This document shows, piece after piece, positions 6,690-34,076 of a DNA stretch of 64,000 nt. Position 1 is the first letter of the stretch, and the number at the start of each line of letters is the position of its first letter. Origin of the DNA: Ornithinibacillus sp. 4-3 (GTDB lineage Bacteria > Bacillota > Bacilli > Bacillales > Amphibacillaceae); assembly GCF_040958695.1 (NCBI RefSeq), contig NZ_CP162599.1, positions 902,001-966,000 on the forward strand, in the 5' to 3' direction. The notes below the pieces were generated by a model. It saw only the letters and a list, made by a program, of their open reading frames with translations. It did not search any database and had not been told where the DNA came from. Both the position numbers and the translations under genes were made by a program.

Positions 6690-7514
6690 GTGAATGGGAA
6701 GAAAAGAAATTTCTACAGTTCATTGAGGGGAAATCTAAGAAAGATGAGCATGCTTTTACTAGTATCGCTCATGTTAGGAACAGGATTAAATATTATAAAT
6801 ACACCATCAGCCGTGGCAAGTACAAATAAACCTTTAGCAACACATCTTAGTGCTGGTGAAACCCACACAGTGGGATTAAAAAAAGATGGCACAGTCATCG
6901 CAACAGGACGGAACTCTTCTAGTCAATTAGCAATAGAAAATTGGACAGATATTACAGAAGTTAGTGCAGGCGGTCTGCATACGGTTGGGCTAAAAAAAGA
7001 TGGAACCGTTCTTTCGGCAGGTAGTAATAGTGATGGGCAAAGAAATGTGGATAATTGGGAGAATATTATCCAAGTTGCTGCTGGCAGAGCACATACCGTT
7101 GGGTTAAAAGAGGATGGGACCGTTGTAGCTACTGGTGGGAATTTTTATAATCAAACCAATGTGGCAGATTGGGAAGATATTGTCTATATTGCTGCTGGGA
7201 TGCACCATACCATTGGTGTAAAAAAGGATGGAACAGTTATTGCGACAGGTATAAATAATCATGGTCAAGCCAATGTAGACGACTGGAAGGACATTATCCA
7301 AGTAGCAGCAAATCTATATCACACAATAGGATTAAAAAGTGACGGAAGCGTTGTAGCAGTGGGGTCGAATAGCAGCGGGCAAATCAATGTAGAGGATTGG
7401 CAGGATATTGCCCAAATCACTTCTGGGGCTGTCCATACAGTTGGCGTAAAAAAGGATGGAACAGTTGTGGCTACTGGTTTTAATGTTTTTGGCCAAATAG
7501 AGGTAGGGGACTAG
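6690..7514 (+). pseudogene. Surface protein 1, N-terminal part, ended by a nonsense codon
   Basis: GTG 6690 follows GGGAGG at 6678-6683. Residues 1-44 are a secretory signal (basic start, MSMLLLVSLMLGTGL, cleavage after AVAS). From residue 55 come blades of a propeller, each about 38 residues with the pattern HTVGLKxDGTVxATGxN...W.DI.QVAAG; five and a half blades are read. Codon 275 (7512-7514) is TAG, where every other blade has TGG for the conserved Trp of the DW-EDI motif. The same frame then continues to 12941. The gene was therefore one protein of about 2083 residues, and a single G-to-A change broke it. A sequencing error or phase-variable state is possible. Confidence 0.85.
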
Positions 7515-7523
7515 GAGGATATT

Positions 7524-10500
7524 GTGCAAGTCGCAGCTGGAGAATATTATACAGTAGGTCTAAAAAGCGACGGTACGGTTTTAGCAACGAATTATAATGA
7601 GGAAGGGCAAACAAATGTGCAAGATTGGAAGTTAAAAGCACTTACAGAGAAAGAGCCGCCATTTCGACTGCCTAATCATCTTGGTTCAGGCGCTCTTCAT
7701 ATTGCTGGTTTGAATATAGATGGTAGTGTAATGGCAACTGGCTCTGATAGTGAAGGACGAGCAAATGTGGGAGATTGGGAGGATATTATAGAACTATCTG
7801 GGGGAGATTTTCATACAGTAGGCTTAAAAGCAGATGGTAGTGTGGTAGCAGTAGGGAGGAGTAGCAGCATTTTGAAAATAGGAGATTGGGAGGGTATTGT
7901 GCAAGCTGTTGCAGGTGGCTATCATACCATTGGTTTAAAAGAAGATGGAACACTTATTGCGACAGGTTTGAACAATTATGGTCAAACGAATGTAGGAGAC
8001 TGGGAAAATATCGTTCAAATTTCTGCGGGAGCATATTCTACATTTGGTTTAAGAAGCGATCGAACCGTTATAGCAGTCGGTTTTAATGGTAGTGGGCAAC
8101 TAAATCTAGGAGATTGGAAAGATATTGTCCAAATTGAAGGTGCTGATTACCATACGGTTGGCTTAAAAGCAGATGGCACGGTGGTAGCAGCAGGTAGCAA
8201 CGGGTATGGCCAAAGTAATGTGGGAGACTGGAAAAATATTAAACAAGTGGCGGCAGGAACTTATCATACCGTTGGATTAAAGAATGACGGTACGGTCATC
8301 GCAGTAGGATTTAATAGCAGGGGTCAACTTGAAGTAGAAGATTGGAAGGATATTATTCAGATTGCAACAGGTGACAATTATACCGCTGGGTTAAAAAGTG
8401 ACGGTAGTGTGTTGATAGCAGGTTCTCCTAGCAATGTTCAATTAGATGTAGATAATTGGAAGGTGAAAACTTTTGCTCCTCAACCTCCTCAAGAATTATC
8501 AGTTGTCAGTACTTCTGGATCTGAGACAGAAGTAGAAGTAAGCTGGGACCCTGCACTAGATTGGGGGATTGGAACAGGATCCTCTCGTAAGTATGAGCTT
8601 GAACAATGGAATGGGGAATCATGGGATCTTATAGGAACGTTATCAGAGGATAACACGTTATGGAAAGGAAAATTATCGGAGGCAATTCAGACTATGTTAC
8701 GTATTCGTGCAGTCACCGACTTTGATAGTTCTCCTTATATTGAATCCAATACATTTCGAGTCGGTCGTCCTGCCCCGCCAGATATCACTGATTTACCACC
8801 AAAGATAACAAACCAAGCAACTATTAATATAGCGGGCATAGCAGAAGCAGACAGCGAGGTAAAAGTCAGCTATGGCGAACAAGAAAAAAAGGTGCAGGCA
8901 GATGAAAGGACGGGTGCCTTTACCATAGAGGAGATCGTGCTAACTCCTAACGAAATGAATGAATTAAAAGTAGTTGCTATCTCACACGGTTTAACGAGTG
9001 AGCCAGTCAACCTCTCTATTCAACATGATGATCGCCCTCCTGCTGCTCCAACGATTACAGTAGAACCAGAAGGCTGGACAAATGCAGAAGAAGTATTTGT
9101 CACCATTACCAATGGAGCAGATGAAGGAAGTGGAGTGGCAAGAACAGAATATCGAATTGGAACAGAGGAAATTTGGGTAACCTATGAGGGAATATTAACG
9201 GTGACGAAAGAAGGAGAAACGAAGATAGAAGCACGTACTATTGATCAAGCAGGGAATATTAGTACTGTTTCTGATACAACAGTGCAAATTGATCGCATAG
9301 CGCCAACCGCACCACAAATTGAAGCAGATACTAGCGCATGGACCAATGCAGATCAAGTAATCGCTCGTATCACGATAGAGGAAGCAGATGCGAATGTTGA
9401 ATATCAATTAAATGGGGTAGATGGAGAATGGATCTCCTATACTGAAGAAATTGTGGTTACAGAAGAAGGAGAGACCATGATTTATGCCCAGGCAGTGGAT
9501 CGAGCGGGAAATATCAGTGATGTGGTAGAATCTCTAGTTCGAATCGACCGAACTGCTCCGGAATTAACCTTGCTTGGTGAGAATCCGATGTATGTGTTAT
9601 ACGGGGAACCTTTTGAAGAGCCAGGTTATCAAGTAGCAGATAATATTACGGATAATTTGGAAGTGGATGTAATAGGAGAAGTAGATACGAACGAAATTGG
9701 TGTATATACTATCACCTATTCTGTACAGGATGAAGCGGGAAATGAAACCGCTCAGACTCGAACAGTACATGTTGTTGATGAAGTACAGCCAGTCATTATC
9801 TTAAAAGGCGATAACCCTTTGATTCTAGAGGTGGGAACTGATTACGAAGAACCAGGGGCAACTGCAGAAGATAATGTAGATGGTGATATCAGTGGCCATA
9901 TCCAGATTACGGGGGATGTAGATACATCCAAACTAGGAATCTATCAAGTGACGTACCAAGTAGCAGATAGTTCAGAGAATCAAACAGAAGTCACTCGTAC
10001 CGTGGAAGTGGTGGATACCACTGCACCAGAGATAACGCTAGAAGGGTCAAGAGAAGTTACCATTGAGCTTGGTGATATTTACGAAGAATTAGGAGCTGTA
10101 GCAAAAGATAACTATGGTGGAGATATCAGCGATCGTATTGACATCATAGGAAATGTTGACACCAGTAGGATAGGAACGTATCAGATAACCTATACAGTAG
10201 CTGATAATTCACAGAATTCTACGAGCAAAATACGTACAGTCCATGTAGTCGATACCACACCGCCAGCTGATGTTATTTTCGAGACAACAAGCGTAACAAT
10301 AGATCATGTAACATTTACCTTTTCTGCGAAAGACTTAGGAGGAATAAAGGAATATATATTATCTCGGAATGGAGAAGAAATTGCCCGGCTTGATGGAAGT
10401 GAAACAACCTATACAGACGAAGAAATGCAAGCTGGAACAACCTATCTTTATGAATTGACAGCAGTTGATTTTTCTAAAAATGCTTCTACTGTGAAAATGG

Positions 10501-12941
10501 AAGTGACAACGAAAGAAAAGCCAATACTGGGAGCACCAGTAACTGTAAAGCATATGGATGAAGCAGGGAACGAGATTGCCGAAATAGAAGAACTGACCGG
10601 GAACATAGGGGAGCCCTACGAAACAGAACCAAAAGCTATTAAAGGTTATACATTAATCCAAGAACCGGAGAACGCAACTGGTACATTTATAGAAGAAGCT
10701 CAAACCGTAACGTACGTCTATGCACTAGAAAAAGAAGAACCAAAACCAGGAGAGTCAGTAACAGTAAAGCATGTGAATGAGGAAGGAACGGAACTCCTTC
10801 CAGTTGAGGAACTGAATGGGAATATAGGAGACTCCTATCAAACCTATCCAGCTATCATCGAGGGGTATGAAATTGTACAGATACCAAGCAACGCAACTGG
10901 TGAGTTTACCAACGAAGTGCAAACTGTGATATATGTTTATGCCCCAGTCCAGGTAGAGATAGAAGGAAGGATTATCATTGAATATGTCGATGAAATTGGT
11001 AATCCTGTTTCAGGCAAAGAAATTCGAACAGGATTAGTGGGAGAAACATATGAAACCGAGCCAAAAAACATCGAAGGCTATGAATTGATCCAAACTCCAG
11101 ACAATGCGACTGGAACATTTACAGAAGAAGCGCAAATCATTACCTATGTTTATTCACCGCTCAAAGAAGAGCCGATAGCGGGAGCCCCAGTTACAGTAAA
11201 CTATGTAGATGAAGAAGGAAATAACCTGGTTACTCCTGAAACCTTACTTGGGAATATAGGAGAGTCATACGAGACAGAAGCTATCCAAATTGATGGGTAT
11301 GAAGTTCTTCAGGCGCCAGACAATGCAATTGGTACATTTACTAATGAAGCCCAAATGGTTATCTATATCTATACTCCAGTGGAAGGAAGCCTAGAAGGAA
11401 CGGTTATCATTGAATATATAGATGAAGCTGGAATTTCGATTAAGCATAGAGAAACCAAAATAGGCTTGATAGGAGAGCCTTATGAAACCAATCCAAAAGA
11501 AATTAAAGATTATCGGTTAATTCAAACACCAGATAATGCGAGTGGTATATTTACAGAAGAAATACAGCTGGTAACGTATGTCTACACGCTGAATAAAGAA
11601 GAACCAATACCAGGAGCTCCAGTCATGGTAAAACATGTAGATGAGGAAGGAAATGAGCTCTTTCCAGCTGAGGAGTTGATAGGGAATATTGGTGAATCCT
11701 ATCACACTTATCCAGCTATCATCAAGGGCTATGAAGTCATCCAGACACCAGACAATGCAACTGGTAGCTTCACCAATGAGACGCAATTTGTAACATATGT
11801 CTATACTTCTATTGAAGAAAAGCTTGAAGGAACGATTATCATTGAATATGTAGATGAAGCCGGTCATTCGATTGCAGGTAAAGAAATCCGAACAGGGCTG
11901 TTAGGAGAAATATATGAAATCGTGCCAAAAGTTATTAAGGGCTATCAGTTAGTTGAAACACCAGAAAATGCAGTTGGTGTATTTAAGGAAGAGACGCAAA
12001 CCATCACCTATGTCTATGCACCAATTAAGAAGGAGCCAACAGTGGGAGGACCAGTCACGATAATTTATGTGGATGAGGATGGAAAAGAACTTCTCCCTTC
12101 CAAAGAATTAACAGGAAATATAGGAGATGCTTATCAAACTAAAGCTAAAGTTATTGAGGGCTTTGCATTAACACAAACACCAGAAAATGCGAGTGGTATA
12201 TTCACAGAAGTAGTCCAAATCGTTGAATATGTGTATACACTAGAAAAAGCTACAGAACCAATAGAATCGGGAACGATAGAAATTGTGCTGAATCGACCGC
12301 CTGTAGAAGTATTTCCAGGAACAATGGTAAGTGTGAAAGGCACGCAGACAACAATACAATTACCGACCGATTTACCAGAAGACACACAATTACAAGTTCT
12401 AACCACTCCATTGAAAGAACAGAATGGGCTAAAACAAGCCGGAGAAGTCTATGATTTTACTTTTATCTATCCAAAAGGTCATGAAGATTATCAAGGTGAA
12501 TTTATCTTGACGATGGGTGTAGATAATGACGGAGAACAAGTGGCAATCTATTACTACCAGGAAGAATTGGGAGAGTGGCAGTTGACTGGAGGAACAAGAA
12601 AGAGGCAGAAAATCACAGCGATAGTATCTCATTTCTCTATGTACGGTGTATTTGTGAAAGAAGATGCAGAAGAAGAGTCTTCTTCAAATAAAGAAAACCA
12701 AGAAATTACAAAGCCTTCTATGAAGGAGAAAAACAAAAAGGAAGAAGTATCTTTTGCTGATAATAAGGAAGAGCAGTTATCAGGCGAGGAAGCTACTGAA
12801 TCAAAGAAAGAAGCAGAAGAAGCCTCTTTGCCAAATACAGCAACCAATCAATATAACTGGCTGATTGTAGGTATTCTATTGATTATATTAGGAAGCAGTA
12901 GATGGGTTATACGAAGAAATACAACTCATAAAGAAGGATAA
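7524..12941 (+). CDS. Surface protein 1, remainder: propellers, Ig/FN3, MucBP repeats, LPNTA anchor
   Basis: This continues the 6690 frame. In order: the end of propeller 1 (blade 7); a second seven-blade propeller (residues 55-320 of this part); an FN3-like domain; an Ig-like domain; two Ig repeats of the PTI-EGWTNAxxV...ARTxDQAGN type; three DUF5011/HYR-like domains (GDNPLILEVGTDYEEPGA); another FN3; eight MucBP repeats of about 72 residues (nt 10530-12265); a shared pre-anchor module (nt 12268-12666); a charged linker; and LPNTATNQYNWL at residue 1769 with a membrane helix and basic tail. The protein should be linked to the wall by a sortase that accepts LPNTA. The GTG at 7524 has AGGAGG five bases upstream, so reinitiation is conceivable, but the product would lack a signal peptide. 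Confidence 0.85.
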   Translation: MQVAAGEYYTVGLKSDGTVLATNYNEEGQTNVQDWKLKALTEKEPPFRLPNHLGSGALHIAGLNIDGSVMATGSDSEGRANVGDWEDIIELSGGDFHTVGLKADGSVVAVGRSSSILKIGDWEGIVQAVAGGYHTIGLKEDGTLIATGLNNYGQTNVGDWENIVQISAGAYSTFGLRSDRTVIAVGFNGSGQLNLGDWKDIVQIEGADYHTVGLKADGTVVAAGSNGYGQSNVGDWKNIKQVAAGTYHTVGLKNDGTVIAVGFNSRGQLEVEDWKDIIQIATGDNYTAGLKSDGSVLIAGSPSNVQLDVDNWKVKTFAPQPPQELSVVSTSGSETEVEVSWDPALDWGIGTGSSRKYELEQWNGESWDLIGTLSEDNTLWKGKLSEAIQTMLRIRAVTDFDSSPYIESNTFRVGRPAPPDITDLPPKITNQATINIAGIAEADSEVKVSYGEQEKKVQADERTGAFTIEEIVLTPNEMNELKVVAISHGLTSEPVNLSIQHDDRPPAAPTITVEPEGWTNAEEVFVTITNGADEGSGVARTEYRIGTEEIWVTYEGILTVTKEGETKIEARTIDQAGNISTVSDTTVQIDRIAPTAPQIEADTSAWTNADQVIARITIEEADANVEYQLNGVDGEWISYTEEIVVTEEGETMIYAQAVDRAGNISDVVESLVRIDRTAPELTLLGENPMYVLYGEPFEEPGYQVADNITDNLEVDVIGEVDTNEIGVYTITYSVQDEAGNETAQTRTVHVVDEVQPVIILKGDNPLILEVGTDYEEPGATAEDNVDGDISGHIQITGDVDTSKLGIYQVTYQVADSSENQTEVTRTVEVVDTTAPEITLEGSREVTIELGDIYEELGAVAKDNYGGDISDRIDIIGNVDTSRIGTYQITYTVADNSQNSTSKIRTVHVVDTTPPADVIFETTSVTIDHVTFTFSAKDLGGIKEYILSRNGEEIARLDGSETTYTDEEMQAGTTYLYELTAVDFSKNASTVKMEVTTKEKPILGAPVTVKHMDEAGNEIAEIEELTGNIGEPYETEPKAIKGYTLIQEPENATGTFIEEAQTVTYVYALEKEEPKPGESVTVKHVNEEGTELLPVEELNGNIGDSYQTYPAIIEGYEIVQIPSNATGEFTNEVQTVIYVYAPVQVEIEGRIIIEYVDEIGNPVSGKEIRTGLVGETYETEPKNIEGYELIQTPDNATGTFTEEAQIITYVYSPLKEEPIAGAPVTVNYVDEEGNNLVTPETLLGNIGESYETEAIQIDGYEVLQAPDNAIGTFTNEAQMVIYIYTPVEGSLEGTVIIEYIDEAGISIKHRETKIGLIGEPYETNPKEIKDYRLIQTPDNASGIFTEEIQLVTYVYTLNKEEPIPGAPVMVKHVDEEGNELFPAEELIGNIGESYHTYPAIIKGYEVIQTPDNATGSFTNETQFVTYVYTSIEEKLEGTIIIEYVDEAGHSIAGKEIRTGLLGEIYEIVPKVIKGYQLVETPENAVGVFKEETQTITYVYAPIKKEPTVGGPVTIIYVDEDGKELLPSKELTGNIGDAYQTKAKVIEGFALTQTPENASGIFTEVVQIVEYVYTLEKATEPIESGTIEIVLNRPPVEVFPGTMVSVKGTQTTIQLPTDLPEDTQLQVLTTPLKEQNGLKQAGEVYDFTFIYPKGHEDYQGEFILTMGVDNDGEQVAIYYYQEELGEWQLTGGTRKRQKITAIVSHFSMYGVFVKEDAEEESSSNKENQEITKPSMKEKNKKEEVSFADNKEEQLSGEEATESKKEAEEASLPNTATNQYNWLIVGILLIILGSSRWVIRRNTTHKEG

Positions 12942-14292: not shown

Positions 14293-14363
14293 TTAATTTT
14301 CTACTAAAAAAATTGTTATAAAATATAGTGGGTTCAAGTATTTTTACTACTAATTTCGTATAC

Positions 14364-14394
14364 TTTCATTTTTCTTTCATTATTAGATGATAAA
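14364..14394 (+). promoter_or_regulatory. SARP-like direct-repeat activator site
   Basis: TTTCAT at 14364-14369 and again at 14375-14380, an 11-bp period, then eight bases and GATAAA (14389-14394) as a -10-like hexamer. This is the layout used by SARP/BTAD and OmpR-like winged-helix activators. A copy with the same spacing lies at 18513-18543. It is 80-110 bases upstream of the hydrolase gene. Confidence 0.55.
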
Positions 14395-14474
14395 CTTTTG
14401 CTACATATGACATAGAGAATCATATTTTCTATGAATAGGCGAGTTTTCATTCTTAATGAAAAAGGAGAAAATAT

Positions 14475-15410
14475 ATGTCTTTATTTAGTTGGATTATTGC
14501 TTTAATAGCGATTTTCGTAATGCTTGCATGTCTAATTCTTTCTTTTGTAGTTTCTTGGAAATTAACACATAATAATGTTAGAAAACCGGTTAATGATTCC
14601 CCTGAGAAATATGGTTTGGATTTTGAAAGGATTACTTTTCCGAGTCTGGATGGTACTTCTTTAAAAGGCTGGTTCATTCCTGCGCCACAACCCAAAAATA
14701 TGACGATTATTTTTGCTCATGGTTATCGTAGCAATCGTTTGGAAAAGAAACTTCCTGCATTAAGGTTGGCAGAAGATTTAACAAAACAAGGTTTCCATGT
14801 ATTGATGTTTGACTTCCGGAATTGTGGAGAATCTGGCGGAAGTGTTAGTTCCATTGGTTTATATGAACAGGAAGATATACTTGGTGCGATTCAATGGGTT
14901 AAAGAAAATCGTTCTTCTATGATCGGACTTATGGGTTTCTCTATGGGGGCTTCTGCTGCCTTGCTTGCAGCTGCTCGTGCACCCCAGGTGGTAGGCGTAG
15001 TTGCAGATAGCCCATTTGATGAGTTACCCACTTATTTGGCAGAGAAGTTTTATGTATGGACAAAGCTCCCAAGCTTTCCATTTACTCCATTGACCTTAGC
15101 TTTTATTAGAGTACATGTAGGAAATCCGAAAAATGTAAATCCTAAAAAAGCTCTAGAGAAAATCTTTCCACGCCCAATTTTATTTATTCATGGTGAAGAT
15201 GATCAGAAGATTCCATGTGAAAATAGTATACGGATGCATGAATTCTACAAGGAGTATTCAACATTTTTAAAAATTTCTCATGCTGATCATATACAGGGTT
15301 ATAGGTTGGACAGGGAAAAATACACTAAGCAAGTTGTTCAGTTTTTTGATAAAGTTGTTAGACAAGAAAGGACCCAAGATATAGAACAGCAAAAACAAAC
15401 TAGTTGGTAA
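14475..15410 (+). CDS. Membrane-anchored alpha/beta hydrolase (YqkD-like)
   Basis: A 311-residue protein starting with a signal-anchor helix (WIIALIAIFVMLACLILSFVVSW). The hydrolase fold follows: HGYRSN oxyanion region, DFRNCGESGG, nucleophile elbow GFSMGAS (S156), acid in HGEDDQKIP (D242 or D243), and a His in SHADHIQGY (H269 or H272). The active domain should sit on the outer face of the membrane. The substrate is unknown; relatives are annotated as peptidases or esterases. AAAGGAG gives the start. The SARP-like repeat upstream suggests control by the nearby REC-BTAD regulator together with surface protein 2. Confidence 0.85.
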   Translation: MSLFSWIIALIAIFVMLACLILSFVVSWKLTHNNVRKPVNDSPEKYGLDFERITFPSLDGTSLKGWFIPAPQPKNMTIIFAHGYRSNRLEKKLPALRLAEDLTKQGFHVLMFDFRNCGESGGSVSSIGLYEQEDILGAIQWVKENRSSMIGLMGFSMGASAALLAAARAPQVVGVVADSPFDELPTYLAEKFYVWTKLPSFPFTPLTLAFIRVHVGNPKNVNPKKALEKIFPRPILFIHGEDDQKIPCENSIRMHEFYKEYSTFLKISHADHIQGYRLDREKYTKQVVQFFDKVVRQERTQDIEQQKQTSW

Positions 15411-15540: not shown

Positions 15541-17286
15541 ATGAATTATATCCTATTTTTAACGTTAATCATATCAGCTATGCTAATGTGTCTTTTACTT
15601 ATCTATTCATTTCGGCACAGAAGACAGCGTGGAGTTCGGTATTTTGCTTGGGTGATGGTTTGTCGAGTGATTTTTGGCTGTAGTGTCATCCTAGAGTTAT
15701 ACAATAGTGAGTTATCATCGAAATTATTCTTTCGACAAATCGAGCAGACTGCACTGGTGATGAATGTTCCACTAGTAATCCTGTGTGTGCTTGATTTATA
15801 TGGTCGAGATGAATGGCTAAAATGGCAGCGACAGTCTCTCTTATTCCTTCCGTTTATTGGCTGGTCTGCGCTCATATGGACCAATGATAAAACACAAGCA
15901 ATCTTTGAATCGGTCACTCTTGTTGATGGTTACTTAGAAGTATCGAGGACCAACTTAGCGTTTAGCTTTAATATTATCTGTTATTTTATTTTATTGATAT
16001 GTGTTTATTTCTTTATTACTTACCTAAAAAAGGCGCGTCCAGAAATTCGCAAACCAGGTATTTTAATTGTTGTATTGGCATCAATTTCAGCAGTGGTGGA
16101 ACTGATTAAATTAGTATACCCCAATCTATCTGAGTGGTTGCTTCCTCTTTCAGTGTATTGTGGGGTGTTTGGACTTATCATACTCTGGGTAGTTTATCAA
16201 AATAAATTGTTTACTATCGTCCCAATGGCAAGAGATTTTATCATGGACACAGTAAGAGAGGGAATTTTGACCGTAGACCAGAAAGGAAGGGTCATTGATT
16301 GTAATCATTTTATAAAGCCGTTATTTGCGAATACGGGTACGACTATTATTGGAAAGGATATTTCTGAGTTATTGCGGAATTGGCCTGAATGGCTAAATGC
16401 ATGTAAGCAGCGACAAGAGGCAACAGTAGAAATGAAGAGTGAGATAAACGGGGAAGTGAAGTACTTTATCACAAAGGTTTATCCGCTTTACTCCAAGCGA
16501 GGCCTTATACTTGGGACAGTCTCTATCTTGTTTGATATCACAGAGAAGCAATATCGGTTAGAAGAAATCGCCCATCTTAATTTTATGAAAGATCAGTTGT
16601 TTACTCTTGTTTCTCATGATATTCGTGAACCGATTGCTACACAAGTGAGCTTGATAGAAATGCTGGAGGAAGACAGACAGAACTTTACATCAGAAAATGC
16701 TGAACTGGTTGATTTCTTAAGTGCGCAGATTCGTTCCACTTATATGACGGTTAACAATGTGTTGGAATGGTTTCGTGGTCAAAAAAATGATGTGTCACTT
16801 CATCCTGAATCGATAGCTTTGCTTGATCTGATTTATGAGGCTTATCGGATTTTGTTTATTAAAAGTAAGGAGAAGCATATTAATATCAATATTCGTGTCG
16901 ATGAAACTATTTATGTATATGCAGATCGTGAGGCAGTAATTATGATCCTTCGTAACTTATTATCCAACGCTATCAAATTCTCTAATCGAGGGGCAACTGT
17001 TGAGGTTCTTGCAAAAAAATATCGAGGAAAAGAAATCATGATTACTGTATATGATGAAGGCATTGGAATGACAGAAGAAATGGTATGCAGCCTCCTAAAT
17101 GAAGAATCCTTAATTTCAACTCTAGGTACAGAGAAGGAAAAAGGAACAGGACTCGGCTTACAAGTCAGTCGACAATTTGTGAAGATGAATGGTGGTGAAT
17201 TCTGGGTGGAAAGTGAATTAGGAAAAGGTAGTGCCTTTCATTTTTCATTGAAAGAAGGTGAGAAAGTTGAGAGTTATGATTATTGA
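15541..17286 (+). CDS. Sensor histidine kinase with 7TM N-terminus and PAS domain
   Basis: 581 residues. Residues 1-220 contain seven hydrophobic segments of the 7TM histidine-kinase sensor type. A PAS-like domain follows at about 225-340 (GILTVDQKGRVIDCNHF). The dimerisation helix carries the phospho-acceptor in LVSHDIREPI (H359). The ATPase domain has an N box LRNLLSNAIKFS, YDEGIGMTEE and GTGLGLQVSRQ. It is a membrane protein that autophosphorylates on an unknown signal and should pass phosphate to the overlapping response regulator. Start ATG 15541 follows a GGAG motif. Confidence 0.9.
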   Translation: MNYILFLTLIISAMLMCLLLIYSFRHRRQRGVRYFAWVMVCRVIFGCSVILELYNSELSSKLFFRQIEQTALVMNVPLVILCVLDLYGRDEWLKWQRQSLLFLPFIGWSALIWTNDKTQAIFESVTLVDGYLEVSRTNLAFSFNIICYFILLICVYFFITYLKKARPEIRKPGILIVVLASISAVVELIKLVYPNLSEWLLPLSVYCGVFGLIILWVVYQNKLFTIVPMARDFIMDTVREGILTVDQKGRVIDCNHFIKPLFANTGTTIIGKDISELLRNWPEWLNACKQRQEATVEMKSEINGEVKYFITKVYPLYSKRGLILGTVSILFDITEKQYRLEEIAHLNFMKDQLFTLVSHDIREPIATQVSLIEMLEEDRQNFTSENAELVDFLSAQIRSTYMTVNNVLEWFRGQKNDVSLHPESIALLDLIYEAYRILFIKSKEKHININIRVDETIYVYADREAVIMILRNLLSNAIKFSNRGATVEVLAKKYRGKEIMITVYDEGIGMTEEMVCSLLNEESLISTLGTEKEKGTGLGLQVSRQFVKMNGGEFWVESELGKGSAFHFSLKEGEKVESYDY

Positions 17287-18391: not shown

Positions 18392-18422
18392 AAAAGAGAG
18401 CATATTTTTTGCTCTCTTTTTT
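18392..18422 (+). terminator. Terminator of the kinase/regulator pair
   Basis: AAAAGAGAGC (18392-18401) pairs with GCTCTCTTTT (18411-18420), followed by more T. Confidence 0.85.
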
Positions 18423-18512
18423 GTTGTTTGGAATTACTTATGAATATTTATTGATAATAGTTTTCCAAATGCAATGTGATTTCTATGCTTATACTGTTCG
18501 AGATAGCTATTC

Positions 18513-18543
18513 TTTCATTTTGTTTTCATTACAGAATGATAGA
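18513..18543 (+). promoter_or_regulatory. SARP-like direct-repeat activator site
   Basis: TTTCAT at 18513-18518 and 18524-18529, an 11-bp period, then eight bases and GATAGA (18538-18543). It is about 75 percent identical over 31 bases to the site at 14364-14394, with the repeats and spacing fully kept. It lies about 100 bases before surface protein 2 and just after the BTAD response regulator. Confidence 0.55.
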
Positions 18544-18641
18544 TTGTTTCCAAGCATGTAAAAAGCTGGGAAATGCTAAATTATCTGTTCTGCATAGGAA
18601 GGTCTATCATTCTAGATCAAAGAAGGGGAGGAACGAGTAAA

Positions 18642-25129: not shown

Positions 25130-25525
25130 TTGCACTTTTGGCATAAATGGGTGATTGGCATCATTGTTTGTATCCAAGTAATTGCCCTCTTTTTTCTGAT
25201 TTATGAAAATGGAGCTTCAATAACGATAGTAGGAGGAAGTATTCTATTTATCTTATTTGGTTTATATCGTCTGATATATTTTGATGTAGATCACTATCCT
25301 CGTATCAATTTGCTTTTATTGTGGGTGCAATTGGCTATAGGTTTTCTGATAACCTGTTTTGATTCCTCCTTTATTTCTTCCATTTATTTATATTTTTTGA
25401 TTTCTGAAATAGCATTGATATATCGCTTTCGAACTAGTTTTCTGTATATGATATCCTCCTATATTTTGTATGTTATTAGTCGGTTCATTGTATTTGATTT
25501 TCCAGCGTTTGAAGAAAAATGTTAG
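25130..25525 (+). pseudogene. Stump of a multi-pass membrane protein, perhaps a sensor kinase
   Basis: TTG 25130 follows GGGAGAGG. The 131-residue frame has four or five membrane helices (VIGIIVCIQVIALFFLIY, ITIVGGSILFILFGLYRLIY, LLLLWVQLAIGFLIT, IYLYFLISEIALIY, FLYMISSYILYVISRFIVF). It then stops just where sequence matching the interior of the surface proteins begins in another frame. The topology resembles the N-terminal sensor part of small Bacillus histidine kinases, and kinase genes accompany surface proteins 2 and 4, so I infer that a kinase lost its catalytic half in a deletion. Confidence 0.6.
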
Positions 25526-28500
25526 TGAAGTAGTAGAAGCTGTAGTAAGAATCGACCACACTACTCCAACATTGACCTTACTTGGTGAAAATCCAATGTC
25601 TGTATTTTATGGAGAAGTTTTTGAAGAGCCTGGTTATCAAGCAGAAGATAACTTTACGGATGACTTGGAAGTAATCGTGACAGGAGAAATAGATACGAAT
25701 CAAATAGGTGAACAAAAGTTAACCTACCCCGTCCAGGATCAAGCAGGAAACAAAGTAACCAAAACTAGAACGGTATATGTCATTGATAAAGATCAGCCTA
25801 TCATAACTTTAAAAGGTGGAAATCCGCTTGTTCTAGAGGTAGGAACAGCTTATGAAGAGGCTGGAGCAACTGCTGAAGATAATGTAGATGGTGATATAAG
25901 TGACCAAATCAAAATTACTGATAATATCGATACATCGAAACTAGGAATCTATCAAGTAGTTTATAAAGTGGAAGACAGCTCCGGTAACCAAGCTACAGCG
26001 ATTCGTACCATAGAGGTTGTAGATACTATCGCTCCAGAAATTACATTAAATGGAGAAGAAGAAATAATCATCGAGCTTGGTGATGAATACCAGGAAGCAG
26101 GTGCTCAAGCTTTAGATAATTATGATGGAGATGTGAGTAATCGTATTGAGATCACAGGAGATGTCGATACTAATCGGATAGGAACATATCAGATAACATA
26201 CAGCGTGGCAGATAGTTCAAATAATACTGTTAGCATAACACGCACAATCCATGTAACAGATGCAACACCGCCAACCGATGTTATTTTCAAAGCAACAAGC
26301 GTAACAACAGATCGTGTAGCATTTACCTTCTCTGCACATGATTTGGGAGGAATTAAAAATTATATACTCTTAAGAGATGGAGAAGAAATTGCGCTTCTTG
26401 ATGGGGGATCAACAAGCTATACAGATGAAGAATTGCAAGCAGGAACTACTTATCTTTATGAGCTTACAGCCGTTGATTTTTCTGATAATGCTTCTCTCAA
26501 AGTAGCTAAGGAGGTTACCACGAAAGAAAAATCAGTAGTAGCCGCGCCGATAACTGTAGAGTATGTAGATGAGGGAGGAAATCAGCTTACTAAAGTGGAA
26601 ACGCTCACTGGGAAGATAGGAGAAGTCTACCAAACGGAAGCGAAAGAAATCGAAGGCTATGAGCTAGTAGAAATGCCAGACAATGCAAGTGGTGAATTTA
26701 CAGAAGAAGCGCAGACAGTGACGTATGTGTATGCATTGGAGGAAGAAGAGTCAATTCTAGGTGAACCAGTGATAGTAGAACATGTCGATGAAGAGGGAAC
26801 TGAGCTTCTTCCACCAGAAGAGCTTATTGGGAACATCGGAGATTCCTATCAAACCCATCCGTCTGAAATTGCAGGCTATGAATTATTACAGAATCCAGAC
26901 AATGCAACTGGTGAATTTACCGATGAAGCACAAACTGTTATTTACGTCTATACACCAATAGAAAGTGATGTAGAAGGAACAATCATCATCGACTATGTCA
27001 ATGAAGCTGGTGAATCTATTGCCGGTAGAGAGACGCAAACAGGCATAGTGGGAGAGGTTTATCAAACAGAGCCGAAAGCAATTGAGGGGTATCAGTTAAT
27101 CGACACCCCGGACAATGCGACTGGCGAATTTACTGAAGAACCGCAAATCGTGGTCTACGTCTATGCGCTAATGGAAGAAGAGCCAACATTGGGAGCACCA
27201 GTAATCGTAAAATATATGGATGAAGCAGGGGAGGAACTGATTCCTTCCGAAGAATTAACTGGAAAGTTAGGCGAATCCTATCAAACAGAAGCAATCGAGA
27301 TAGGTGGCTATGAAGTCTTGAAAACACCAGACAATGCAACTGGTGAATTTACAAGTGAAGCACAGACCGTGATTTACATTTATACTTCAGTAGAAAGTGA
27401 CGTAGAAGGAACAGTCATCATTGAATATGTTGATGAAACGGGGCAGTCCATTGCAAATAGAGAAACACAAACAGGAGTAGTAGGAGAAGCCTATGAAACG
27501 GAACCAAAAATAATTGAGGGCTATGAATTAGTAGAAACGCAAGGTAATGCGACTGGCGAATTTACCGAAGAACCGCAAACAGTAACCTATGTTTATGCTT
27601 TAGAGGAAGAAGAGCCGATACTGGGAGCACCAGTGACCGTGAAATATGTGGATGAAGCAGGAGAGGAGCTCATTCCATCCGTAGTATTAAAAGGAAATAT
27701 GGGTGAATCCTATCAAACAGAAGCAATCGAGCTAGGAGGCTATGATGTTGTGCAAACACCGGACAACGCTTCTGGTACATTTACAGAAGAAGCACAAACA
27801 GTAACGTATGTGTATGCTCCAAAGAAAGTAGAAGTGCCTTTGGAAGGAACCATTATGATAGAGTATGTGAATGAAGAGGGTCAATCACTTGTAAGCAGAG
27901 AAACGAGAATAGGCGTAGTAGGCGAAGCATATACAACAGAAGCGAAAGCAATTAAAGGCTATCAATTGATCGAAATCCCAGAAAATGCAACAGGTACATT
28001 TACCGAAGAAATGCAAACAGTAACGTATGTGTATACGTTAGAAAAACGAGAGGAACCAAAAGAAACTGAAATCCCAGAATTAATCGAAATTATTCTGGAT
28101 GAACCACCAGTAGAGGTATTTCCGGGAATCACGGTCACGGTGAAAGATACCCAAACTATCATCCAATTACCGAATGATTTACCAGCAGGCACGTTATTAC
28201 AAGTGCTCACTGCCGAAGTGAAAGAACAGAAAGACTTGAAGCAGGCTGGAGAAGTATACGACTTTCTCTTTACTTTCCCAGAAGAACAGGGGGATTACAG
28301 TGGAACATTTATCCTGACAATGGGTGTGGATGAAGCAGGTGACCAAGCAGCCCTATACCATTATCAAGAAGCATGGCAGCGGATTGGTGGAACCTTAAGT
28401 GGAAATACCATCACCGCAACGGTATCCGATTTCTCGATGTATGGTGTGTTTATGGAAGAAGTGCTAGAAACAGAACCGCCAGTGAAGGAAGAGCCAGAAG

Positions 28501-28721
28501 AGAAGGAACCAAAGCAAGAGCCGAAAGGGCAAGAAACAGAAGGAAAGAAACCAGCAAAAGAACCAAAAGAGGAAAAACCAGCAGAGGAAGAGGCCACTAT
28601 TTTGCCAGCAACTGCAACCAATCAATATAACTGGCTGATTGCTGGGATCGTATTGATGATAACAGGAAGCAGCATATGGTTGATTCGTCGAAAAAGGAAG
28701 TATAAGGAAGATCATCAATAG
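25518..28721 (+). pseudogene. Surface protein 3, 5'-truncated relic with LPATA anchor
   Basis: From 25518 the frame reads NVSEVVEAVVRIDHT, matching the middle of surface proteins 1 and 2 (GNTSEVVQDIVRIDRT in protein 2). Three DUF5011-like domains, an FN3 domain, seven MucBP repeats (nt 26530-28060), the pre-anchor module (nt 28075-28461), a Pro/Glu/Lys linker, LPATATNQYNWL and a membrane tail follow. The signal peptide and all propeller blades are missing. The only in-frame ATG upstream (25470) lies in the membrane-protein stump and has no ribosome binding site, so the protein is unlikely to be made or exported. The MucBP order matches protein 1, its closest relative here. Confidence 0.82.
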
Positions 28722-28748
28722 AGTAAAGACATAACAGAACGTGTTCAT

Positions 28749-28954: not shown

Positions 28955-29161
28955 GTAATTTTTTCACTTTCCCAGGAAATAAAAAAATTATCTAGAAAAA
29001 TAGCCAATTGCTAACATTCCTCAATATTCAAATAAATAATTCTCTGATAGCATTATGAAAAATCTTCTTAAAATGAGGTTTTGTAACGAATTGGAGGAAA
29101 TTAACTTCAAATTGATTTGATAAGAGGATATGAATTATTTATAAAGGGGGAATAGAGATAA

Positions 29162-29539
29162 ATGGGAGTAAAATTAATTAAGATTTCAGTTGTTTATTTT
29201 GCATTAGGAGCATTACTCGGGCTTTATATGTCTATGGCACAAAATTACAGCTACACTGGTGTGCATGCACATGTGAATTTGCTAGGGTGGACTGCTTTAA
29301 CCCTAGCAGGAATTTTATATTTAATGTTTCCGAAAGCTGGAAATAGCCTGGCTGGTAAAATTCATTTTTGGATGCATAATATAGGTCTGCCTTTGATGAT
29401 GATCGGATTATTCATGGCAATTAGCGGGTATGATCAATTTTTGATCTTAATTCCAGTAGGTGGGGTAACCGTTGTTTTAGCTGTTTTAGTCTTTGCTTTT
29501 AATATATTAAAAAATATTAAATCAGTTGATGCTTCATAG
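29162..29539 (+). CDS. Small 4TM protein of the cytochrome oxidase subunit I-like type
   Basis: A 125-residue protein with four membrane helices and a conserved YTGVHAHVNLLGWTALTLAG stretch, where H-x-H plus a following GW motif resembles a piece of the heme-copper oxidase CcoN/NorB fold; a third His lies in FWMHNIGLPLM. Such short stand-alone proteins occur in Bacillaceae and are usually annotated as cytochrome-c oxidase-like; no activity is established. AAAGGGGGA provides the ribosome binding site. It is followed by a terminator-like hairpin, then surface protein 4; no obvious functional tie. Confidence 0.65.
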   Translation: MGVKLIKISVVYFALGALLGLYMSMAQNYSYTGVHAHVNLLGWTALTLAGILYLMFPKAGNSLAGKIHFWMHNIGLPLMMIGLFMAISGYDQFLILIPVGGVTVVLAVLVFAFNILKNIKSVDAS

Positions 29540-29560
29540 AACTCGCTTTTCGTTTAGAAC

Positions 29561-29594
29561 AAATGAAATCTTAAATATATTTAAGGTTTCATTT
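29561..29594 (+). terminator. Hairpin between the 4TM protein and surface protein 4
   Basis: AAATGAAATCTTAAAT (29561-29576) pairs with ATTTAAGGTTTCATTT (29579-29594) with one mismatch. There is no long T run, so termination may be partial. Confidence 0.55.
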
Positions 29595-29672
29595 CAATAG
29601 GGTGAATCATGGTAAGTTTAGCATAATTTCGTTGATGAGAAAATGAAGTAAAAAAAGGAAGGATGAATATAT

Positions 29673-31745
29673 TTGCAGAAGGTTATGATGAAATCACAAG
29701 TATGGTTAATTACATTAGTATGTTTACTTGTATTAACACCAATTACATCAGTAATAGCAGCTGGGGTGGAGAAGGAAAAAGTTAATTATGTTTCATTAGG
29801 AGATTCATTAGCTGCTGGACAATTATCTGATAAAACCCTTGGTATTGGCTATGCAGGTAACATTGTAAAGGATTTAGAAGCAAATGGATATGAGGTGAAT
29901 TTTTCTAACAAGGGAGTGCCTGGAGCAACTTCGACAGAGGTGGTTGCACAACTGAATGCTCAAGAGCTAATGAACGCAGATATTGTAACAATTAGTGCTG
30001 GTGCAAATGATTTATTAAGAGCATTAGATATGTCAAAAATTGCTTTATTTGATAAAAATTATTTGAATCCAAAAGCTGTATCTGAAATGAAAAATACTGT
30101 TAAAATTGAAATTGATACAGATATCGAGACAGCTATAGATATGGCTGAAGAATCAATAGTTGGAGCTGCTGGAAAGATAGCTACTTTACATATAACAATG
30201 GAAACACTAGAAGAAGCTGTAAAACCATATGAAACATTTTTATCAGATGATATAAAAGAAGCACTTACTTCAATTCGAAATGATTTAGATCATGTGATAT
30301 TAAAGCTTACTAACATCCAAGAAGCAAAAGATAGTTTTGTAATGGGTGAAGAAAGTTCTAGAGAGACATTAGGGACGATATCCAATGAGCTTGGTTCTAT
30401 ATCAGAGGGTATAAACAAAATAAATAATGCAATCACAACGATTAATCTAGAAATAGACAAGTTACCTATTACTGTTCCTGTTGAAATTGTAGAGGCTGTA
30501 GAAACAGTTAACAATTTAAGCTTAGATATTAAAGAAAACGTAGATACAGCAAAAATTATGATTGATGATGCATTAATTAAATTAGATGAATTTGATGAGC
30601 GTATAGCAGAGATTGATAGATTAGTAGTAAATGCACAAGAAGTACAACAAATGCTAGCAAACCTGCCAAATAAGATAACAGAGGCAGGGAAAAATACAGC
30701 TCAAATCATTGCTGCTATTAAGGAAGTAAATCCGGAGGTACAGGTGTATGTATTAGAATATTATAATGCTTTGCCTTATTTATCAGCAGAGATACAACAA
30801 TTCATAGTACCATTATTAATTGCTTTAAATGATGCGAATAAAGCAGTGGCAGATGCAACAGGAGCAATCTATATCCCTACTTTTGAAGCATTTGATGGAA
30901 AGCATGAAGCTTATCTTCCTAATCCAGGAGATATTCATCCAAATGAAGCAGGATATCGCGAGATTGCTGACGCATTTATGAGTAAAATAAATGAATCATT
31001 CCCAGAAATTTCTAAGCCAGATCCTACGCCTGAAGAGCCAAAAGAGCCGAATGAACCTGAGGAAGAACCTAGAGAATCAGCTAAACAGCCAGAATCAGTA
31101 GAAATCGTTCTAGGTAATTCACCTGTGGAGGTATTTGCAGGTACATTAGTTACGATCAAAGATACACAGGCAACTATCCAATTACCGGAAGATTTACCAA
31201 GTGGTACGATGCTACAGATTATGCTTGCGCAAGTAGATATACAGAAAGGTCTAACACAATCTGGAGAAGCTTTTGATTTTATTTTCACTTATCCAGTGGG
31301 GGATGAGGACTATAAGGGCGAATTTGTTTTAACATTAGGTGTAACAGGTGAACATGAAGGATCTTCTATTTATCATTATCAAACAGAAGATCAAGTATGG
31401 GAGTTAATTGGCGGTAAACTAGAAGAAGGAAAACTGACTGCGACAGTATCACATTTCTCTATGTATGGTGTATTTACGTCAGAAAAAACAACTGAGCCAC
31501 CTAGCAAGCAAGAATCTTCTACTAAGGAAAAACCAATAAATGATGATCAAGGTACAGCAGATAAGGAAGAAAAAGAAAATAATGATAAAATTATAACAGA
31601 TGAAGAAGTAAAAGCAGAAAAGGAATCTCAGAAGCTACCAGAAACAGCAACAAATCAATATAATTGGTTAATCATAGGGATTCTACTAGTTTTAATGGGT
31701 GGAAGTATTGAATTTATCCGTAGAAAAAGCGCAATGATGAAGTAA
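29673..31745 (+). CDS. Surface protein 4: SGNH/GDSL hydrolase with LPETA anchor
   Basis: 690 residues from TTG 29673, preceded by AAGGAAGGA. Signal peptide (VWLITLVCLLVLTPITSVIAA), then an SGNH hydrolase: block I YVSLGDSLAAG (S45), block II NKGVPGATS, block III ISAGANDLL (N112), block V DIHPNEAGY (D420, H422). Between blocks III and V lies an insertion of about 250 mostly helical, coiled-coil-like residues, far longer than usual. The C-terminus has a Pro/Glu linker, the shared pre-anchor module (nt 31094-31488), a charged linker, LPETATNQYNWL and a membrane tail. It is likely a wall-anchored esterase acting on surface or environmental acyl groups. The OmpR/kinase pair downstream is its probable regulator. 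Confidence 0.88.
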   Translation: MQKVMMKSQVWLITLVCLLVLTPITSVIAAGVEKEKVNYVSLGDSLAAGQLSDKTLGIGYAGNIVKDLEANGYEVNFSNKGVPGATSTEVVAQLNAQELMNADIVTISAGANDLLRALDMSKIALFDKNYLNPKAVSEMKNTVKIEIDTDIETAIDMAEESIVGAAGKIATLHITMETLEEAVKPYETFLSDDIKEALTSIRNDLDHVILKLTNIQEAKDSFVMGEESSRETLGTISNELGSISEGINKINNAITTINLEIDKLPITVPVEIVEAVETVNNLSLDIKENVDTAKIMIDDALIKLDEFDERIAEIDRLVVNAQEVQQMLANLPNKITEAGKNTAQIIAAIKEVNPEVQVYVLEYYNALPYLSAEIQQFIVPLLIALNDANKAVADATGAIYIPTFEAFDGKHEAYLPNPGDIHPNEAGYREIADAFMSKINESFPEISKPDPTPEEPKEPNEPEEEPRESAKQPESVEIVLGNSPVEVFAGTLVTIKDTQATIQLPEDLPSGTMLQIMLAQVDIQKGLTQSGEAFDFIFTYPVGDEDYKGEFVLTLGVTGEHEGSSIYHYQTEDQVWELIGGKLEEGKLTATVSHFSMYGVFTSEKTTEPPSKQESSTKEKPINDDQGTADKEEKENNDKIITDEEVKAEKESQKLPETATNQYNWLIIGILLVLMGGSIEFIRRKSAMMK

Positions 31746-31751
31746 GTACAG

Positions 31752-31795
31752 GCCTAACTATATTCTTTTACATTAGAATATGTTTAGGCTTTTTC
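31752..31795 (+). terminator. Terminator of surface protein 4
   Basis: GCCTAACTATATTCT (31752-31766) pairs with 31775-31789 with two mismatches, then TTTTTCT. Confidence 0.85.
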
Positions 31796-31961
31796 TACAT
31801 GTATACAAATTGTTAAATTAATAACATTCTTTTCTTTAGATAGGTACAAACTTCTTAATCTACACTAAATCTATGCAAAGAACGAAATGTAATATATAAT
31901 TAAGTTGAATAATAAGAATATTTCGTTAATATAACATAGGAAAGGAGAACTTGAATAAACC

Positions 31962-32642
31962 ATGCGTATTTTACTAGTCGATGATGATCAAGATATATTG
32001 AACATTAACTCTATTTATCTTGAACGAGAAGGATATGAATGTTTATTAGCAGAAACATTGCAGCAGGCACATGCAATCATAGAATTGGAAAATCCAGATT
32101 TGATTGTTCTTGATATTATGCTTGCAGATGGATCAGGAATTGATTTTTGTCGTAAAATACGAGATCTTACGATTGCTCCGATCATCTTTTTATCAAGCTT
32201 ACTAGAAGAAGCTAAGAAAATAGAGGCATTGAAAATTGGTGGTGATGATTATATAACTAAACCATACAAGCTTGCAGAATTATCGGCAAGAATCTATGCC
32301 AATTTACGACGTATGCAAATGTATGAGAAGAAGACATATGAATTTCCACCATTGAAAATAGAGGTAGAGTCCTATCGTGTTTTTTTATATGAAAAAGAAA
32401 TACTACTTACGCAAAAAGAAATGCAATTATTAGTTATCCTTGTCAGAAATCAAGGAACGACAGTGCGTGCTGTTGATTTGTATGAACAAGTATGGGGACA
32501 ACCTGCAATTAATGAATCGAGTATGAGAACATTGCAAGTACATATTTCTACATTGCGTAAAAAGATTATCTTAGATGAAAATTCCTCCATTAATATTAAA
32601 ACGATTCGTATGATAGGTTATTGCTTTCAATATGAAGAGTAG
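31962..32642 (+). CDS. OmpR-family response regulator
   Basis: 226 residues: receiver domain with LLVDDDQD, acceptor D51 in LIVLDIML, S in FLSSL and Lys in DDYITKPYK; then an OmpR winged helix (LLTQKEMQLLVILVRNQG...RTLQVHISTLRKKI...IKTIRMIGYCF). ATG 31962 has AAAGGAGAA rather far upstream (about 12 bases). It is followed 33 bases later by its kinase. Targets are not shown by the sequence; by position surface protein 4 is the first candidate, the ABC/ECF operon the second. Confidence 0.9.
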   Translation: MRILLVDDDQDILNINSIYLEREGYECLLAETLQQAHAIIELENPDLIVLDIMLADGSGIDFCRKIRDLTIAPIIFLSSLLEEAKKIEALKIGGDDYITKPYKLAELSARIYANLRRMQMYEKKTYEFPPLKIEVESYRVFLYEKEILLTQKEMQLLVILVRNQGTTVRAVDLYEQVWGQPAINESSMRTLQVHISTLRKKIILDENSSINIKTIRMIGYCFQYEE

Positions 32643-32675
32643 GGAAAGCAAAATAATGGAATTGGTGGTAAGACA

Positions 32676-34076
32676 ATGCATATACCGTTAGAAGATTGGT
32701 CCCAGTGGACATTTAGCCTTTTATTGCTTGGGGGTATATTTTTCGTTGGGCTTTTTAATATAGTAGTCTACCTAGTGCGTAGGAGACTTAATGTACATTA
32801 TTATTTTGGAATGCTATGTGTGTTTTATGTCATATGGTATAGCAGCCATGTTATGACATTCAATCTGTTTTCATCAGACTTTCTAAGTGATCATTATATT
32901 ATTATCATTGCTGCAATAGCTACGAATCGGATGGCTTTACATATTACTTTATATACAATGCATACGTTAGAAATAGATAAGCCTATATTTGAAAAGAGGT
33001 TTAAGATTGCCTCCAATTTATTGCTACTTGCTTGTTTCTTTATGCCATTTTCGATTACTTATACAGTAGGCATGATATGGTTAATTGAGTTGTTCAATGC
33101 AATCGTTCAAATTTATTTTTCATATGAAATTATAAAAGTGATCAAACGTTTTCGCAAAAACATTCGAATGATTAATGTAATTTGTTATTTTGTAATTTGT
33201 ATTGCAACAATTATGCAGTTTATCGACATGGAATTCCATGGTAATACGATATTCCTTGCATTTATAATGATGGCGTTACAAGCGATAATTCTAGCAATTC
33301 ATTATAATAATGCAATTGTTGAAGTAGAACGAGCGAATGTGACACTGGAAAGGAAAGTTATCGAACGGACAGCTGACCTTATTCAGAAGGAAAAGGAAAC
33401 CATTCACCTTATTTCGAGTATTTCACATGATTTGCGCACGCCTATCTCTGTTGTTGGCGGTTATATAGGGCTTTTGCAGAGTGATCCAAGCATAGATGAA
33501 ACAAATAAAAAATATATTTCTAATTCATTAGTGCGCCTATCACAGATGGAAAAGCTCACTCTGGATTTATTTACATTATCACAAATAAGCGATAAAAATT
33601 ATACATTTGAGTTGGAAAATATCCATATTATGAGAATAATGAAAGAAATTAAGGTATTGTATACAGATCATGCAAAGGAAAAAGGGATCACCCTGGAAGT
33701 GAACACAGTGAATGCAATCTGTATAGCTGATAAAATGAGAGTCTTACAAATATTGGATAATTTACTGACGAATGCTTTAACATATGCGAGAACTTCTATC
33801 AAAATAGAAGGAAGATTACATAAAGATGAACTTCAAATTACTGTTTCTGATGATGGGGCAGGTATTCAACCAAAAGATCTCCCACATGTGTTTGAGCGTT
33901 TTTATAAAAAAAGTAAACATGGATCGGGACTTGGATTAAGTAATGTGAAACAGCTTGTTCAGCGCATGAATGGCACAGTCGTTGTTGAAAGTGAACTAGA
34001 TGTTGGTACAAGTTTTCGATTTACATTGCCACTTGCAATAGAAGGACAGGAAAAACGGAACCTAGAATTTATTTAA
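32676..34076 (+). CDS. Sensor histidine kinase with multi-pass N-terminus
   Basis: 466 residues. About seven membrane helices occupy residues 10-215, then a short coiled linker (ERKVIERTADLIQKEKE) like the 7TM-DISM kinases. The phospho-acceptor lies in SISHDLRTPISVVGGY (H251). The ATPase domain has LDNLLTNALTYA, SDDGAGI and GSGLGLSNVKQL. It is the partner of the OmpR regulator immediately upstream. No PAS domain, unlike the other kinase in this window. Confidence 0.9.
   Translation: MHIPLEDWSQWTFSLLLLGGIFFVGLFNIVVYLVRRRLNVHYYFGMLCVFYVIWYSSHVMTFNLFSSDFLSDHYIIIIAAIATNRMALHITLYTMHTLEIDKPIFEKRFKIASNLLLLACFFMPFSITYTVGMIWLIELFNAIVQIYFSYEIIKVIKRFRKNIRMINVICYFVICIATIMQFIDMEFHGNTIFLAFIMMALQAIILAIHYNNAIVEVERANVTLERKVIERTADLIQKEKETIHLISSISHDLRTPISVVGGYIGLLQSDPSIDETNKKYISNSLVRLSQMEKLTLDLFTLSQISDKNYTFELENIHIMRIMKEIKVLYTDHAKEKGITLEVNTVNAICIADKMRVLQILDNLLTNALTYARTSIKIEGRLHKDELQITVSDDGAGIQPKDLPHVFERFYKKSKHGSGLGLSNVKQLVQRMNGTVVVESELDVGTSFRFTLPLAIEGQEKRNLEFI

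Follow-up and report, generated by a model that had tools for sequence, protein, structure and literature searches.

A BTAD-type response regulator, a direct-repeat promoter box and an adjacent giant surface gene as a probable local control unit in Ornithinibacillus sp. 4-3 and its relatives

The surface-protein island and the gene 2 unit

We analyzed a stretch of 64,000 nucleotides from Ornithinibacillus sp. 4-3 (contig NZ_CP162599.1), here called the window, which spans bases 902001-966000 of a genome assembled as one contig of 3.69 Mb; the host is grouped in one family with Gracilibacillus timonensis (genome G152). The window carries an island of four genes for sortase-anchored surface proteins interleaved with regulator genes. 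Our focus is the second of them, gene 2, together with the two-component pair in front of it and a direct-repeat promoter element. In many relatives, regulators of this family probably switch on the adjacent giant surface gene through a shared DNA signal.

The four gene regions (6690-12941, 18573-24752, 25470-28721 and 29673-31745) have in common a C-terminal module some 220 residues long, in which genes 2, 3 and 4 are 48, 55 and 49% identical to gene 1, followed by the sorting signals LPNTA, LPNTA, LPATA and LPETA in gene order. A profile of the module retrieved genes 1-4 at E <= 4e-108, with the next match at 9e-57, which bears out the claim of the first-pass annotation that four large proteins are built on one C-terminal module and sorting signal. 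Its account of the domain content stands in part: module and signal are present in all four, genes 1 and 3 are broken, and a fifth member lies outside the window. This protein of 1585 amino acids, with a PQQ propeller, Ig repeats and LPSTA, is encoded upstream at 888574-893331, 15 kb before gene 1 and directly behind its own MalT-like regulator. RCC1 and Ig repeats occur in genes 1 and 2 and MucBP stretches in genes 1 (eight) and 3 (seven); gene 4 has the shared module without any of these parts.

Searching the genome with PF04203 found one sortase, 30 kb before the window, which is a class D enzyme specific for LPxTATN (NF058671). The class D substrate signal NF058670 was recognized in genes 2 and 4, the two of the four that were scanned. 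The sortase gene sits directly behind what appear to be an OmpR-type regulator and a kinase (L085:5002-7387, genome 870001-872386; by eye from translations), so the sortase may itself be under two-component control.

The genes, predicted boxes and terminator-like hairpin of the island lie on the forward strand. Gene 2 (18573-24752; RCC1, Ig, LPNTA) is intact and more likely starts at GTG 18642, behind GGGGAGG. It is preceded by a putative operon, proposed from gene positions, of an alpha/beta hydrolase (14475-15410), a histidine kinase with a HisKA_7TM sensor part (15541-17286) and a response regulator (17258-18385). A hairpin scan placed a terminator-like hairpin after the regulator gene (18392-18420), and an inverted repeat with a T run, absent from that scan's listing, follows the MalT-like gene in front of gene 1 (6288-6337); genes 1 and 2 are for this reason probably transcribed on their own.

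The regulator combines Response_reg (73 bits) with Trans_reg_C (24.5 bits, just below the cut-off of 26.2), the layout of a receiver-winged helix protein. Since Pfam finds no BTAD domain in it, its assignment to the BTAD type rests on alignment. It aligns over its full length with relatives at 22-29% identity, and 9 of the 12 aligned relatives match PF03704 (BTAD). A 374-position profile covers it completely at 424 bits, the window protein being itself a row of that profile, and as a single sequence it matches a BTAD-bearing paralogue at 1279173 over residues 4-374 (E 2e-38). The regulator classes named in the earlier annotation were recovered for the MalT-like LuxR protein, the HisKA_7TM kinase pair and the OmpR/kinase pair; the BTAD domain is the part that has no Pfam match.

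Regulator neighbourhoods and a shared promoter box

Relatives of the regulator were gathered by score, blind to their neighbours, and were found in 54 of 120 family genomes (E <= 1e-40) and in 36 of 299 genomes of the order (E <= 1e-90, five of these within the family). The neighbourhoods comprise eight from a single-protein search, 60 more family stretches and 36 from outside the family. Counts for relatives leave out the rows of the host genome and five partial rows elsewhere; the short regulator L190 fell below the score limit. Next to 35 of the 71 family regulators lies an open reading frame (ORF) with a sortase signal, and for 43 there is one within two ORFs, against a background of 5/341 at ORF offsets 3-6. 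Outside the family the figure within two ORFs is 15/38, with two regulators counted twice (L225/L228). Leaving out L228, the combined set has a sortase-signal gene within two genes for 58 of 107 regulators, in 31 of 48 genera, and the number rises to 71/107 when sortases within three ORFs are also counted. Sortase neighbours themselves (30/107) are a rough count, as 11 of 39 profile matches are without a TLxTC-like motif. The 56 paired surface proteins have a median length of 2081.5 amino acids.

Two controls were examined. Among 21 MalT-like regulators of other genomes, which do not include the known adjacent case L111, none had a surface neighbour and one had a sortase within three genes; for 88 genes six or more ORFs away from a BTAD-type regulator the numbers were three and zero. 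In the host genome, three of five full-length regulators (the window's and those at 2469779 and 1279173) adjoin a surface gene or fragment. Gene order in related genomes was a comparison which the first-pass annotation had proposed; for the BTAD-type class the regulator-surface neighbourhood recurs in 31/48 genera, and as a class the pairing proposed for gene 2 is strongly supported by these sequences.

A separate observation concerns L131, L145 and, by sequence, L105, where a small GGDEF protein adjoins the BTAD-type regulator; in L145 the GGDEF gene is preceded by the box described below. Such a neighbour makes a link to cyclic-di-nucleotide signalling possible.

The box emerged from repeat scans. 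Scanning 16 single regions for three-copy repeats, only that of L092 stood out (0/200 shuffles), and the regions were consequently pooled and scanned for two-copy repeats. Across periods 8-23, period 11 occurred before 7 of 55 paired surface genes as compared to 10 of 591 control genes; period 22, twice that length, preceded 5/55 as compared to 14/591. From the period-11 repeats a consensus, TGTWMAG-N4-TGTWMAG, was drawn by eye; it is found before 33/55 paired surface genes versus 25/589 controls and on the opposite strand before 0/55. Other heptamer spacings gave 1-4 of 55, but gaps 7 and 8 gave 11 and 7. Aligning the 33 sites revealed T, A and T at positions 28, 29 and 33 in 30, 30 and 29 cases, a -10 element at a fixed N10 that emerged unselected and had not been used in finding the box. 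The full element before relatives' surface genes reads TGTWMAG-N4-TGTWMAG-N10-TANNNT.

A matrix trained on 25 family sites recovered 10 of 14 out-of-family pairs and 3/198 controls. With 700 bases upstream and a score of at least 16, the box precedes 38 of the 56 pairs (training sites included) and 2 of 589 other genes; for the out-of-family pairs alone these values are 9/14 and 1/198. The control gene L103 (1766 amino acids, cut by the stretch end), whose box scores 17.0, is probably a real target and was kept among the controls. The box is present in 25 of the 31 genera that have the pair. It occurs in every arrangement, with the regulator upstream (16/25), divergent (15/18), downstream (5/7) or convergent (2/6). 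Surface genes without a BTAD-type regulator nearby gave 0/39 rows at a score of at least 12 (38 distinct genes, one of them twice). The box goes with the regulator and not with surface genes in general.

Five regulators at loci without an adjacent surface gene (L151, L155, L184, L214, L225) have the box before their own gene, and elsewhere the boxed neighbour is a sortase, a pilus tip protein or a GGDEF protein. In L137, L138, L140, L142, L154 and L172, again without an adjacent surface gene, a strong box was seen before a gene of about 200-240 amino acids; the boxed type of 196-205 amino acids is a sortase in L140, the one that was scanned, and the boxed gene of L154 encodes a LuxR-type regulator. 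A Tyr in the presumed recognition helix is shared by 39 of 40 strong-box regulators, but also by 10 of 15 weak-box regulators, so that covariation between helix and box can be taken as a lead and no more. At this position the window regulator carries Asn.

A pattern that admits the window's own heptamer and TGTTCAG in the box-to--10 geometry has two exact matches in 3.69 Mb, both in the window. One predicted box with -10, CTTTCAT-N4-TTTTCAT-N10-TAGATT, precedes gene 2 (18512-18545); the other, CTTTCAT-N4-CTTTCAT-N10-TAAACT (14363-14396), precedes the hydrolase, kinase and regulator genes. A third exact copy of the repeat TTTCATT-N4-TTTCATT, at 35508, was set aside, as it lies inside an ABC gene without the -10 geometry. 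The family consensus is not in excess in the whole window (5 matches, 7.8 expected), and GGGGTGGAG with up to one mismatch gave 7 sites for 5.0 expected. The family matrix yielded one intergenic match (13.5), before the MalT-like gene, which is equalled by matches inside genes and is not claimed. The genome holds a second case, in which the regulator at 2469779 has an LPETS adhesin as its neighbour. Four 11-base repeats occur there, and the final pair has TAATAT at N10; no other copy of this repeat was found in the host genome at up to two mismatches.

Proposed mechanism and alternative explanations

The element resembles operators of known winged-helix regulators. The consulted parts of two SARP papers (PMC10972967, PMC5930380) describe heptameric direct repeats with 4-base spacers in 11-base units, usually overlapping the -35, and a regulator gene located inside the cluster it drives. 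To that extent, the box, whose heptamers repeat every 11 bases where a -35 would be, is a candidate SARP-like operator, and the regulator likewise lies beside its predicted target. It also shares with the Streptomyces SARP/BTAD activators the winged helix and, in 9/12 aligned relatives, a BTAD-type C-terminus. Unlike SARPs, it starts with a receiver domain, and its predicted targets are sortase-anchored surface proteins, sortases or pilus genes instead of antibiotic clusters. Similarly, the PHO box is described, in the part of PMC4415409 consulted, as two 7-base direct repeats 4 bases apart, bound by a response regulator with a winged helix. Repeat layout and regulator type are thus alike, whereas the predicted target here is local, beside the regulator gene, and not a wide phosphate regulon, and the protein has an extra C-terminal part. 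The spacing from box to -10 also resembles that of PhoB promoters. By this analogy, we predict that the window regulator works like PhoB and SARP activators at repeats of 11-base period.

Two further systems invite comparison. According to the part of PMC3208642 consulted, SctR of Bacillus anthracis activates srtC-basI, an operon that encodes a class D sortase together with an LPNTA protein. Likened by the type of its target, SctR may be a member of the BTAD-type group or a mere analogue. In streptococcal pilus islands, a regulator gene inside the surface-protein island (RlrA, RofA/Nra) drives the island; unlike the BTAD-type regulator, these are stand-alone proteins from different regulator families and have different DNA sites.

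In our model, the 7TM kinase would sense a cue and phosphorylate the BTAD-type regulator, which would then bind the two 7-base direct repeats of 11-base period in the place of a -35, exactly 10 bases before the -10, and activate both gene 2 and the run of genes to which it belongs itself. The product of gene 2 would be exported and then anchored by the single sortase that the genome search recovered. The combination of regulator, box and giant surface gene recurs across family and order, and genes 1 and 3 would be decayed members, the former carrying a stop codon and the latter having lost its head along with a NarL-type regulator. The neighbourhoods, the box, its rarity in the genome and the gene breaks are direct observations. 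We consider the whole model likely, including the decay of genes 1 and 3, and with it the view that the island is a set of class D sortase proteins, most of which arrived with a private regulator.

Several results weigh against it. No PF03704 match was obtained for the window regulator even at E <= 1. The region upstream of gene 2 scores only 2.0 on the family matrix, and the claim for the window depends on a variant heptamer that keeps the geometry of the box. The window pattern was written with the gene 2 site in view, so that the independent evidence consists of the second site and the rarity of the pattern. At one mismatch this pattern has 13 further sites, and a reversed control gives 8 at up to one. 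Among relatives, 49/107 are without a surface gene within two genes, although some genes are cut by the stretch ends, and 18/56 pairs are without a box at a score of at least 16. In the host itself, the regulators at 3600556 and 1265692 have no adjacent surface gene.

In favour of the original idea, in which each of four surface proteins is switched on its own cue by a regulator of a different class, different classes do precede genes 1, 2 and 3 and follow gene 4, and two of the four classes show evidence of pairing elsewhere. In the host strain, such a four-way switch cannot work because genes 1 and 3 are broken; the third regulator is also missing, and the OmpR pair stands directly before ABC-transporter genes. 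We regard this explanation as very improbable and find the proposed surface switch unsupported. The pairing of regulators and surface genes on which it was built survives unevenly: strongly for pair 2, by neighbourhood and promoter element, and moderately for the MalT class though not at gene 1, while the regulator of pair 3 is gone and the OmpR pair is followed by ABC genes. A more fitting description than surface switching is private, local control of individual surface proteins, in an island half of whose members have decayed. The TAG is the only stop in the frame of gene 1 (6690-12941), which would fit an error of sequencing or a change that arose recently in this strain, with gene 1 functional in the species. 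This reading is unlikely, given that decay is frequent in this host, as in gene 3 and the fragment L093:16043-16867.

The box might instead belong to another winged-helix regulator of wall proteins such as WalR or PhoP, making the BTAD-type regulator a bystander; the PHO boxes in the part of PMC4415409 mentioned above, likewise two 7-base repeats with 4 bases between, speak for it. No box, however, was found before surface genes that have no BTAD-type regulator in their vicinity (39 rows), and boxes also precede some of these regulators' own genes (the five loci named above). The WalR site, TGTWAH-N5-TGTWAH, has the same period as the box, yet only 3 of 38 boxes fit this consensus, a result that speaks against a WalR regulon. 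This alternative therefore seems quite improbable. Still less credible is that regulators adjoin surface genes without any regulatory link, simply as both gather in a variable part of the chromosome. With its decayed genes and paralogues the island does look like a hotspot; the neighbourhood, however, recurs in 31/48 genera, two other regulator classes compared are without it, and the promoter element tracks the pairing.

Beyond private control of gene 2 by its regulator, a broader and more tentative reading, for which we see slightly less than even chances, is that giant sortase-anchored proteins of Bacillales follow a modular code of one regulator for one surface protein. A BTAD-type regulator with its own recognition helix would act on a box of 11-base period, sometimes regulating itself or driving a sortase or pilus gene. 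MalT-like and NarL-type regulators would fill the same slot within one island, each wall protein would answer to a private cue, and units would be gained, swapped and lost as blocks. To our knowledge, no expression conditions are established for the giant adhesin-like proteins of environmental Bacillales. A regulator beside each gene and a readable box would allow surface-protein control to be predicted from sequence, offer a means of switching surface proteins one at a time and assign a definite role to a class of response regulators that has received little study. In titles and abstract openings, a scope that leaves most subscription literature outside, no publication describing the regulator-surface protein link was found.

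Genes 1, 3 and 4 and their regulators

Gene 1 (6690-12941; RCC1, Ig, MucBP, LPNTA) consists of two ORFs in one frame, split by the in-frame TAG at 7512-7514 within the RCC1 repeats, and by eye no signal peptide was seen at the start of the second ORF. The gene before it (3711-6275) encodes a regulator of 854 amino acids with TPR_MalT (70.8 bits) and GerE (67 bits), which is a MalT-like LAL protein below the MalT equivalog cut-off (292 vs 537). Matches were found in 3 of 20 genomes with the window protein as query and in 39 of 159 family genomes with a three-sequence profile (E <= 1e-60). Both MalT-like genes of the host precede a module-bearing surface gene. Of the nine best-scoring rows, three adjoin a surface gene (two in the host, one in G. 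timonensis) and six have no surface neighbour.

In G. timonensis the MalT-like regulator is positioned behind its surface gene. A 55-bp block with inverted TCCACC/GGTGGA occurs before the surface gene there and in the fifth member (score 20; 0/500 shuffles reach it, the best giving 15.5), and because the regulator lies on different sides in the two cases, it is the surface gene that the block accompanies. Identity between the two regulators is 57%, and that of gene 1 shares only 23% with that of the fifth member. The block was not found before gene 1, and a candidate motif common to gene 1 and other MalT-linked surface genes was rejected as not above shuffles. Pairing of the MalT class with a surface gene thus has moderate support at the fifth member and none at gene 1. 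Between the MalT-like gene and gene 1, an ORF of 18 codons (6578-6634) with a good ribosome-binding sequence was noticed by eye and may encode a leader peptide.

Gene 3 (25470-28721; Ig, MucBP, LPATA) is a remnant with no signal peptide by eye and no RCC1 match. Its start overlaps a membrane stump of 131 amino acids (25130-25525) and its surface-protein frame begins at a junction near 25517, the region being fused to the first approximately 130 codons of a histidine kinase. The suspicion that this stump might be a kinase proved right: its residues 3-129 are 52% identical to the start of a 444-amino-acid histidine kinase ORF in G. timonensis, with weaker matches in 13 other genomes (155 searched). 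Neighbourhoods of the kinase were compared in four relatives (G152, G122, G023, G018); in each, the gene after it encodes 216-228 amino acids with receiver and LuxR-type matches, NarL-like in the one of the four that was scanned, and no sortase-signal gene lies within five ORFs of the kinase. Pair 3 appears to have been a kinase/NarL-type pair whose regulator was lost. The simplest account would be one deletion that removed most of the kinase, the NarL-type regulator and the head of gene 3.

Elsewhere in the genome, a second remnant like gene 3 was seen at L093:15800-16870 (genome ~1277800-1278870), a surface fragment with SdrD_B and LPETA that has kinase-like antisense sequence on one side and a BTAD-type regulator on the other. 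The fragment beside the regulator, L093:16043-16867, looks decayed.

Gene 4 (29673-31745) joins a GDSL hydrolase to the shared module and LPETA. It is followed by an OmpR-type regulator (31962-32642) and a histidine kinase (32676-34076), and 113 bases after this pair, on the same strand, begins a run of ABC-transporter genes (34190-39985). ABC transporters are common partners of OmpR/kinase pairs, and from position the pair more likely serves this transporter than gene 4. Upstream of gene 4 lies a gene for a small membrane protein with a weak COX1 match under the Pfam cut-off (29162-29539), and between the two we noted a near-perfect AT-rich palindrome with two 17-nucleotide arms (29561-29594; 94%), an operator or a terminator. 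A sigma-70 family factor is encoded at 37940-38491, inside the ABC-transporter run behind the OmpR pair.

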